A DNA stretch of 64,000 nt from Tepidicaulis marinus (lineage in GTDB: Bacteria; Pseudomonadota; Alphaproteobacteria; Parvibaculales; Parvibaculaceae), in NCBI RefSeq assembly GCF_000739695.1, contig NZ_BBIO01000014.1:1-64000 (forward strand), read 5' to 3'. Each line of letters starts with the position of its first letter. The first letter of the stretch is position 1. Position numbers and translations under genes: made by a program. Below the pieces are notes generated by a model. The model had not been told where the DNA came from and made no database searches. It worked only from the letters and a program-made list of their open reading frames with translations. This document shows positions 57,246 to 60,295 of this stretch, in pieces.

Positions 57246-57277
57246 AACGGGCCCCTTTCGAGGGGCCCGTTTTTTGT
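57246..57277 (+). terminator. Rho-independent terminator of the PAS_5 gene
   Basis: GAACGGGCCCC/GGGGCCCGTT closes on TTTCGA and is followed by TTTTTTG. Confidence 0.93.
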
Positions 57278-57309
57278 GGCTCACGGGAGAGTGATGGGCG
57301 GGTGTCTTC

Positions 57310-57336
57310 TTATTATATGCATCATGCATATAATAA
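57310..57336. promoter_or_regulatory. Perfect 27-bp palindrome overlapping the -10 box of the MarR gene
   Basis: TTATTATATGCAT, a central C, and the exact reverse complement ATGCATATAATAA. TATAAT (57329-57334) lies in the right arm and ends six bases before the ATG at 57341. A MarR dimer bound here would block initiation, so this is the probable autoregulatory operator. Confidence 0.9.
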
Positions 57337-57340
57337 CCCC

Positions 57341-57874
57341 ATGACAGAGAAACAGCTCACCAACCGCCTTGGCGCGCTGGCCCTTGCCGCAAGCGACGCG
57401 CAGATCAAAACCGCCACCGGCCTGACGGGGCTCAGCGCGTCGTCCTGCGCACTCATCGTTTCGCTCGGTCTTTACCCCGGCGGCACGGTGTCAGAGGCAA
57501 GCACCCTGCTCGACCTCAGCCATTCGGCAACCGTGCGCCTGACGGAGAAGCTGGCCGCTCAAGGCTTTCTCACCCGCCGCCCTGGCGAGGATAGGCGCGA
57601 GGTGGCGCTGGAGCTGACGGATAAAGGTCAGCGCATGCGCAAAACCATTCTCGCCGCGCGCGAAGAGGCGCTCAGCGCCGTTCTGGGCGGGCTGACAAAA
57701 ACAGAACGCAAAGCCCTCTTGCCGTTGCTGGATAAATTACTTGCAGCGCTGACCGTGGACGCTGTCAGCGCCGGGCGCATGTGCCGCCTGTGCGATGACG
57801 GCATGTGCGGCCATGACGCCTGCCCCGTCCACCGCACCTATGAAGAGCTTGAAGCGGCCGGCGCCCCGCATTGA
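57341..57874 (+). CDS. MarR-family regulator with a C-terminal Cys-rich tail
   Basis: The 177-residue protein has a winged-helix core (SASSCALIVSLGLYPGG, then ASTLLDLSHSATVRLTEKLAAQGFLTRRPGEDRR, the helix-turn-helix and wing near 50-85). After the dimer helices comes a tail with CRLCDDGMCGHDACPVH, four Cys spaced C-x2-C-x4-C-x4-C, which could bind a metal or sense oxidants. The ATG at 57341 has no upstream ribosome site but lies at the expected transcript start, so a leaderless message is likely. A DUF417 gene follows after 36 bases. Confidence 0.88.
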   Translation: MTEKQLTNRLGALALAASDAQIKTATGLTGLSASSCALIVSLGLYPGGTVSEASTLLDLSHSATVRLTEKLAAQGFLTRRPGEDRREVALELTDKGQRMRKTILAAREEALSAVLGGLTKTERKALLPLLDKLLAALTVDAVSAGRMCRLCDDGMCGHDACPVHRTYEELEAAGAPH

Positions 57875-57910
57875 GCCCAACCCCAAAGCGCCCAGAGGAG
57901 GAGACCCCAC

Positions 57911-58390
57911 ATGAACGACACCCAGCTTGCCGCCTATTTCGGCTATGCGGAAAAGATCGGCCGCGCCGTCGCCTATTACGGGCTCGGCCTGATTTTCTTC
58001 GCCTTCGGCCTTTACAAGTTCACCCCTGAGGAAGCCGCGGCCATTGAGCCGCTGCTCATTCACAGCCCGTTCCTTTCCTGGCTGCATGCCGGTTTCGGCG
58101 CGCAGGGCGCTTCAAATGTGATCGGCGTGGTGGAACTTGCCATCGCCCTTGCAATCTTCGCCCGCCGTTTCCTGCCCCGCGCTGCCGCCATCGGCTGCCT
58201 GGGCGCGGCCGGTTCGCTCGTCGTGACGGTTAGCTTTCTCTTCACCACGCCAGGCATTAGCGAGGATACGGCCGGCTTCCTGATCAAAGACGTGCTGCTG
58301 TTCGGTATCGCCATGTGGGCGGCAGGTGAAGCCTGGGCCATGGCCCGCAGCGGCGCGCGCAGCCCGGCAGCGCTTGCCCGTTCCGCCTGA
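57911..58390 (+). CDS. DUF417 (YkgB/RclC-like) membrane protein
   Basis: The 159-residue protein has four transmembrane segments. FGLYKFTPEEAAAIEPLLIHSPFLSWL is the family signature in two parts, and VSFLFTTPGISED the C-terminal one. In E. coli the homologue RclC belongs to the reactive-chlorine response operon under RclR. Here the neighbour is a Cys-rich MarR, 36 bases upstream, with GGAGGAG before the ATG at 57911. An electrophile or oxidant defence role is inferred from that. Confidence 0.87.
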   Translation: MNDTQLAAYFGYAEKIGRAVAYYGLGLIFFAFGLYKFTPEEAAAIEPLLIHSPFLSWLHAGFGAQGASNVIGVVELAIALAIFARRFLPRAAAIGCLGAAGSLVVTVSFLFTTPGISEDTAGFLIKDVLLFGIAMWAAGEAWAMARSGARSPAALARSA

Positions 58391-58409: not shown

Positions 58410-58445
58410 AAAAGCGGGCCCTTTTGCAAGGGCCCGCTTTCTTTT
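58410..58445. terminator. Bidirectional terminator between the DUF417 gene and the GMC gene
   Basis: AAAGCGGGCCCTT/AAGGGCCCGCTTT with a TTGC loop is flanked by A-rich and T-rich runs. Confidence 0.93.
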
Positions 58446-60104: not shown

Positions 60105-60295
60105 AAGCTTCCCTTCTCCACAGCTTCCCTGGCAAAGGCAGATGCGGCGGCCTTGTTCCGGCAACTCACTCCCTGCGCAGCCATTTAGGCTCGGCCATTT
60201 GGCCTTTGTTCTGATTTTGCCGAATTGTGATATGTCAGCAAAGATGACGCAAGCGTCATCTTTGCCAAAGCGGGCGCGATGGCCCTTTTAAGCTT

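Follow-up and report, generated by a model that had tools for sequence, protein, structure and literature searches.

The question raised by this locus, which lies in a 64,000-nucleotide stretch of Tepidicaulis marinus DNA (the window), is whether the operator, promoter and start codon of a regulator gene can be fused into a single short element, and whether the regulator is then made from a message that has no leader. The gene (marR, 57341-57874, + strand) encodes a protein of 177 aa that scores above the curated cut-offs of Pfam MarR_2 (28.8 bits, cut-off 27) and HTH_27 (27.4, cut-off 22.2), which places it in the MarR winged-helix family as the sequence-only reading had proposed. It also matches the sequences of solved MarR structures, its score against PF01047 is 21.1, under the cut-off of 24.6, and the equivalog cut-off of BilQ (NF045593) is not reached (45.4 versus 125 bits). 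Upstream lies a PAS_5 gene with its intrinsic terminator (57246-57277, +; perfect 11-bp arms at 57246-57256 and 57261-57271, then a T run). Downstream is a gene for a 159 aa DUF417, RclC-like membrane protein (57911-58390, +; PF04224, 70.9 bits, cut-off 27), the probable co-transcribed target, which unlike marR has a strong Shine-Dalgarno sequence (AGAGGAGGAG, 57894-57903, +). The two-gene operon is closed by a terminator-like hairpin with 13-bp arms (58411-58440, +), and a GMC oxidoreductase gene follows downstream on the opposite strand.

A perfect palindrome of 27 bp had been claimed in front of marR, and the inverted-repeat search bears this out, the arms 57310-57322 and 57324-57336 being complementary at 13 of 13 positions around one central base (TTATTATATGCAT-C-ATGCATATAATAA, 57310-57336). 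Perfect inverted repeats whose arms reach 13 bp are found at three places in the whole window, namely the palindrome, the downstream terminator of the operon and a repeat at 60238-60265, whilst the longest arms in 20 block shuffles of the window were at most 12 bp. The repeat at 60238-60265 (GCAAAGATGACGC-AA-GCGTCATCTTTGC) lies between an OmpA-domain and a GMC oxidoreductase gene, both on the - strand, and without a clear T run it may be either a terminator or an operator. The palindrome at marR is proposed to be the MarR operator, with a 15-bp core TATGC-N5-GCATA (57316-57330) that is common to relatives, and it would give the locus the MarR-family trait of a palindromic operator over the gene's own promoter. 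A search of the 3.48-Mb genome for its 17-bp core ATATGCATNATGCATAT, tolerating up to two mismatches, turned up this one copy and no other. A perfect inverted repeat beside a start codon might also act in RNA, as a hairpin controlling translation, but the repeat would not be transcribed if the message begins at or near 57341, it is 81% A+T with a loop of only one base, and the half-sites retained in relatives are of the DNA type and lie five bases apart, all of which makes a role in RNA extremely improbable.

The -10 hexamer TATAAT (57329-57334, +) lies in the right arm of the palindrome and the ATG at 57341 follows after the six bases AACCCC, as first described, and the claim that no ribosome site precedes the gene also stands, with no Shine-Dalgarno match of four or more bases in the 18 nt before the ATG. 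From this six-base spacing, which is kept in relatives, the transcript is predicted to start at the A of the start codon (57341, +), and a -10 hexamer placed so that +1 coincides with the start codon is what characterises leaderless genes. In Bradyrhizobium 192 mapped transcript starts fall exactly at start codons and the motif of leaderless-type promoters is an extended -10, TGnTA (PMC4842269). The marR promoter does not have this motif, its TG and TATAAT stand one base too far apart (TGCATATAAT), and an extended -10 (TGn) was rejected with the spacing off by one base. The best match to the sigma70 matrix for a -35 is the weak TTCTTA (57307-57312, +), 16 bp from the -10, and because a good -35 for TATAAT is missing no promoter is listed at marR by a plain consensus scan; the promoter model is that of E. 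coli sigma70. Elsewhere in the window a gene for a SpoU-type RNA 2'-O-methyltransferase (755-1558, +) is preceded by TTGCGA-17-TATAAG-7-ATG and is another possible leaderless gene.

A scan of genome contigs for close relatives gave a single match, a sister species, represented by the locus of Rhodobiaceae bacterium UBA4490 with 90% protein identity. None of the 26 arm bases differs in the sister species, nor does the -10 or its six-base distance from the ATG; changes are seen at the centre of the palindrome, where G replaces C, and at two of the last four bases in front of the ATG. Between the PAS_5 terminator and the palindrome sits a 20-bp block, CTCACGGGAGAGTGATGGGC (57280-57299, +), that has the same letters in both species. 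This conservation, together with the poor -35 and the existence of relatives such as L073 and L046 in which an operator of the same type gives a message with a leader, would fit a different reading, in which the palindrome is still the operator but the main transcript begins upstream, so that marR has a short leader and is weakly translated without a Shine-Dalgarno sequence. The terminator means that any independent marR promoter must lie within about 60 bp, yet upstream of the palindrome no promoter-like site was found, and an upstream start would leave the fixed 6-7 nt spacing of the relatives unexplained, it is therefore considered unlikely.

The sequence-only reading did not mention that an in-frame ATG is also present at 57317, inside the palindrome, from which translation would add eight residues (MHHAYNNP). 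The frame is open and several relatives likewise have an in-frame ATG in the left half-site, which follows from the fixed distance between operator and start. An in-frame stop is found within 30 nt before the start in 12 of 30 leaderless-type relatives, however, and at each of the three positions of this stretch where window and sister species differ the amino acid is altered, nor is this ATG preceded by a ribosome site; the relatives' stops and the amino-acid changes led to its rejection, and translation from it is very unlikely.

The start at 57341 with the message beginning there can be compared across the family. Around 90 relatives came from whole-genome searches with alignments and named ones were added from plasmid records, whilst searches of two narrow taxa gave no new relatives. 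The fused operator, promoter and start codon are found again in relatives at 33-44% protein identity, which supports the proposal that the three elements are fused in about 32 bases. L030 has TTGACA-17-TATATT-6-ATG with TATGCAACACGCATA in the spacer, L010 has TTGAAA-18-TATGTT-6-ATG, four others (L028, L029, L031, L032) have TTGAAA, 17 bp, then TATGCT, TAAACT or TATCCT 6 or 7 bp before the ATG with a TGTGC..GCACA repeat, and a further four (L012, L017, L024, L026) have a TTG-type -35, 17 bp, TACATT, 6 bp and ATG. For counting by an automatic rule, the start was taken as the nearest ATG that precedes the conserved N-terminal block by four codons or more, failing which a GTG/TTG, and the promoter as the best sigma70 matrix score (E. 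coli model) over gaps of 0-44. With kinship ignored, a gap of 6-7 nt between -10 and start occurs in 22 of 41 non-redundant relatives, against a mean of 1.8 and a maximum of 7 in 300 shuffles. The unchanged rule applied to a held-out set that was fetched later gave 11 of 35 (shuffle mean 1.5, maximum 5; kinship again ignored), although some of these members have weak matrix scores, and it is for this reason that a matrix score of at least 4.5 was demanded for the leaderless-type label on the tree. Among other ORFs of the window 2 of 53 have the same gap. Many relatives in the wider family do not have the 6-7 nt spacing, or have a leader and a Shine-Dalgarno sequence.

Two groups of relatives differ in their layout or their carriage. 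In a subclade with the helix SQPT (L037, L047, L079, L080, L122, L126) the fusion is tighter still, with the start codon at or inside the right arm of ATGCATAGCCTATGCAT, the operator. One relative is found on conjugative plasmids, in Klebsiella oxytoca (L052, CP026717.1) and in many plasmids of Citrobacter and Enterobacter, where TTGAAG-17-TATTCT-6-ATG precedes the gene and the last two cysteines of the C-terminal tail described below are apparently absent.

It is apparent that the position of the operator is also constrained. The inverted repeat in relatives usually occupies the spacer between -35 and -10, and in 21 of 42 leaderless-type genes the centre of the dyad is 16-20 nt upstream of the start, compared with a shuffled mean of 6.75 and a maximum of 14. 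The letters of the operator do change, within a common core T[AG]TG[C/A]-N5-[G/T]CA[CT]A, and position 5 goes with the residue of the recognition helix that precedes a conserved His/Gln: with Ser there are 22 C and 1 A, with Thr 5 C and 11 A (Fisher p 2.6e-5, kinship ignored), with only four supported independent pairs left once shared descent is allowed for. A core that varies with the Ser/Thr residue suggests that the palindrome is the regulator's own operator. Binding of the window MarR to the palindrome is predicted from sequence, and it might be supposed that the palindrome belongs to a different regulator with MarR acting elsewhere, but the core occurs only once in the genome, a similar site precedes homologues of the gene in distant genomes whose neighbouring genes differ, and the letters of this site track the recognition helix, so that a foreign regulator is a highly improbable owner of it. 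That the layout is kept while the operator letters change supports a kept design, as far as can be judged by comparison, over an arrangement due to chance. In eleven relatives (L012, L017, L024, L026, L028, L029, L031, L032, L042, L044, L062) the operator is present a second time, some 20-40 bp upstream of the copy embedded in the promoter, and in L044 and L062, for example, a gene diverges from the second copy.

Whether such genes have leaders can be compared by means of their ribosome sites, which form a separate check because the leaderless label drew on the promoter only. A Shine-Dalgarno match was found in 0 of 33 leaderless-type members and in 15 of 43 others (Fisher p 7e-5, the related sequences not being independent). 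Taken with the spacing counts this supports, by inference, the earlier proposal that marR is probably leaderless. A pyrimidine precedes the start codon in 24 of 33 leaderless-type genes, but the same bias exists in Shine-Dalgarno-type genes and it lends no support. On a quick tree the window falls in a clade with L006, L010 and L089 (SH-aLRT 96) in which all members are leaderless-type, the Shine-Dalgarno-type members are mostly in separate clades such as the Methylorubrum/Sphingomonas/Sinorhizobium group, and the state must have changed six times or more, whichever the direction. L010, L069 and L085, in which a second in-frame ATG gives a six-base gap, were assigned by hand. In L073 operator and -10 are fused in the same way (...CATGCATATAATA...), but a leader of about 30 nt with GGAG follows, hence what stays constant across the wider group is the fusion of operator and promoter, whilst leaderlessness varies within it; L046 likewise has a leadered message from the same operator type.

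The function of the switch may be approached through the protein and its neighbours. The MarR protein of the window ends in a C-terminal tail CRLCDDGMCGHDAC (57782-57823, +) with the pattern C148-x2-C151-x4-C156-x4-C161-P, all four cysteines are invariant in A1 and A2, and 71 of 76 non-redundant relatives share the four-cysteine pattern. The tail may be a metal or thiol sensor. DUF417 genes adjoin relatives in Methylorubrum, Rhizobium, Sphingomonas, Sinorhizobium and Methylobacterium and lie two genes on in L010, EamA transporters are beside relatives in L010, L083, L089 and Shinella, and other neighbours include haloalkane-dehalogenase-like hydrolases, glyoxalase-like proteins and DUF3237. 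The recurrence of DUF417, EamA, haloalkane-dehalogenase-like and glyoxalase-like neighbours suggests a role in detoxification, and a role in the handling of toxic small molecules or oxidants is likely from gene context. A gene divergent from marR is common (L030, L044, L045, L050, L043, L062, L068); on the gammaproteobacterial plasmids it is annotated as haloalkane dehalogenase, in L043, L062 and L068 it encodes a related alpha/beta hydrolase, and in L030 it has no Pfam match. RclC of E. coli, a DUF417 protein, is involved in resistance to reactive chlorine and is controlled by RclR. The second gene of the window resembles RclC in being a DUF417 protein that matches part of the RclC model, unlike RclC it scores 45.1 bits against the equivalog NF040476 (cut-off 275), which leaves it a member of DUF417 only, and it has a MarR in place of RclR and no adjacent rclA or rclB.

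It is fairly probable that marR and the DUF417 gene form an autorepressed, leaderless MarR operon. A dimer of MarR would bind the 27-bp palindrome, with the core in the spacer between -35 and -10 and the -10 in the right arm, and once bound would shut out RNA polymerase. Release might come about through modification of the four-cysteine tail by an electrophile or oxidant, after which the polymerase would open TATAAT and begin transcription at the A of the ATG. MarR would then be made from a leaderless message, and the DUF417 protein would be translated from the same message by means of its strong Shine-Dalgarno sequence.

MarR sites that overlap the -10 and -35 are textbook knowledge. Such sites are 16-20 bp and often lie over these elements (PMC5401885), and individual leaderless MarR genes have also been described. 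ForZ of Streptomyces formicae, likewise called leaderless, has a unique palindrome between its own gene and its target that overlaps promoter elements (PMC12421854). The ForZ site lies over the -35 of forZ itself and is proposed to activate forZ, and transcription of the divergent gene begins within it (PMC12421854), unlike marR of the window, where the right arm holds the regulator's own -10 and the target is downstream. CrtR of Corynebacterium glutamicum is also MarR-type with a reported leaderless transcript, but the crtR promoter was not recognisable, mapping placed the site at the promoter of the divergent crtE and no conserved geometry of operator and start was described (PMC5401885). 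HypR, HypS, CosR, AbfR and ForJ, as cited in PMC12421854, are likewise cysteine-bearing MarR repressors of stress genes; as far as they are described there they use a single cysteine or a few, within the fold or close to it, in contrast to the four in the C-terminal tail, C-x2-C-x4-C-x4-C, of the window MarR. It speaks for a leaderless marR that messages of this kind have been mapped in related bacteria, Bradyrhizobium as given above and Methylorubrum, where they make up 7% (PMC9320726), and in a methanotrophic alphaproteobacterium they are chiefly those of stress regulators and toxin-antitoxin genes (PMC12403871). In the part of the literature covered no description was found of a family in which operator, -10 and start stand in one fixed arrangement throughout while the operator letters diverge and sister clades have leaders. 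Leaderless MarR genes are already known through ForZ and CrtR, it is the clade-wide conserved geometry that appears to be new.

A wider reading can be put forward tentatively, as a possibility short of an even chance, that there is a widespread family of MarR regulators with four-cysteine tails in which the geometry of operator, -10 and start is fixed whilst operator letters and protein diverge together, that leaderlessness has been selected, and that departing clades gained a leader and a ribosome site with the operator kept. Leaderless regulators are usually reported singly from maps of transcript starts, here comparison predicts a whole family of leaderless autorepressors. A half-site letter that varies with one residue of the recognition helix would be a simple and testable rule of specificity, and the sister clades with leaders on the same operator would allow a direct test of leaderlessness in a feedback switch. 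If the wider reading is true, selection would have favoured leaderlessness as an element of the switch, one conceivable benefit being that the repressor is still made when the same stress impairs normal initiation.
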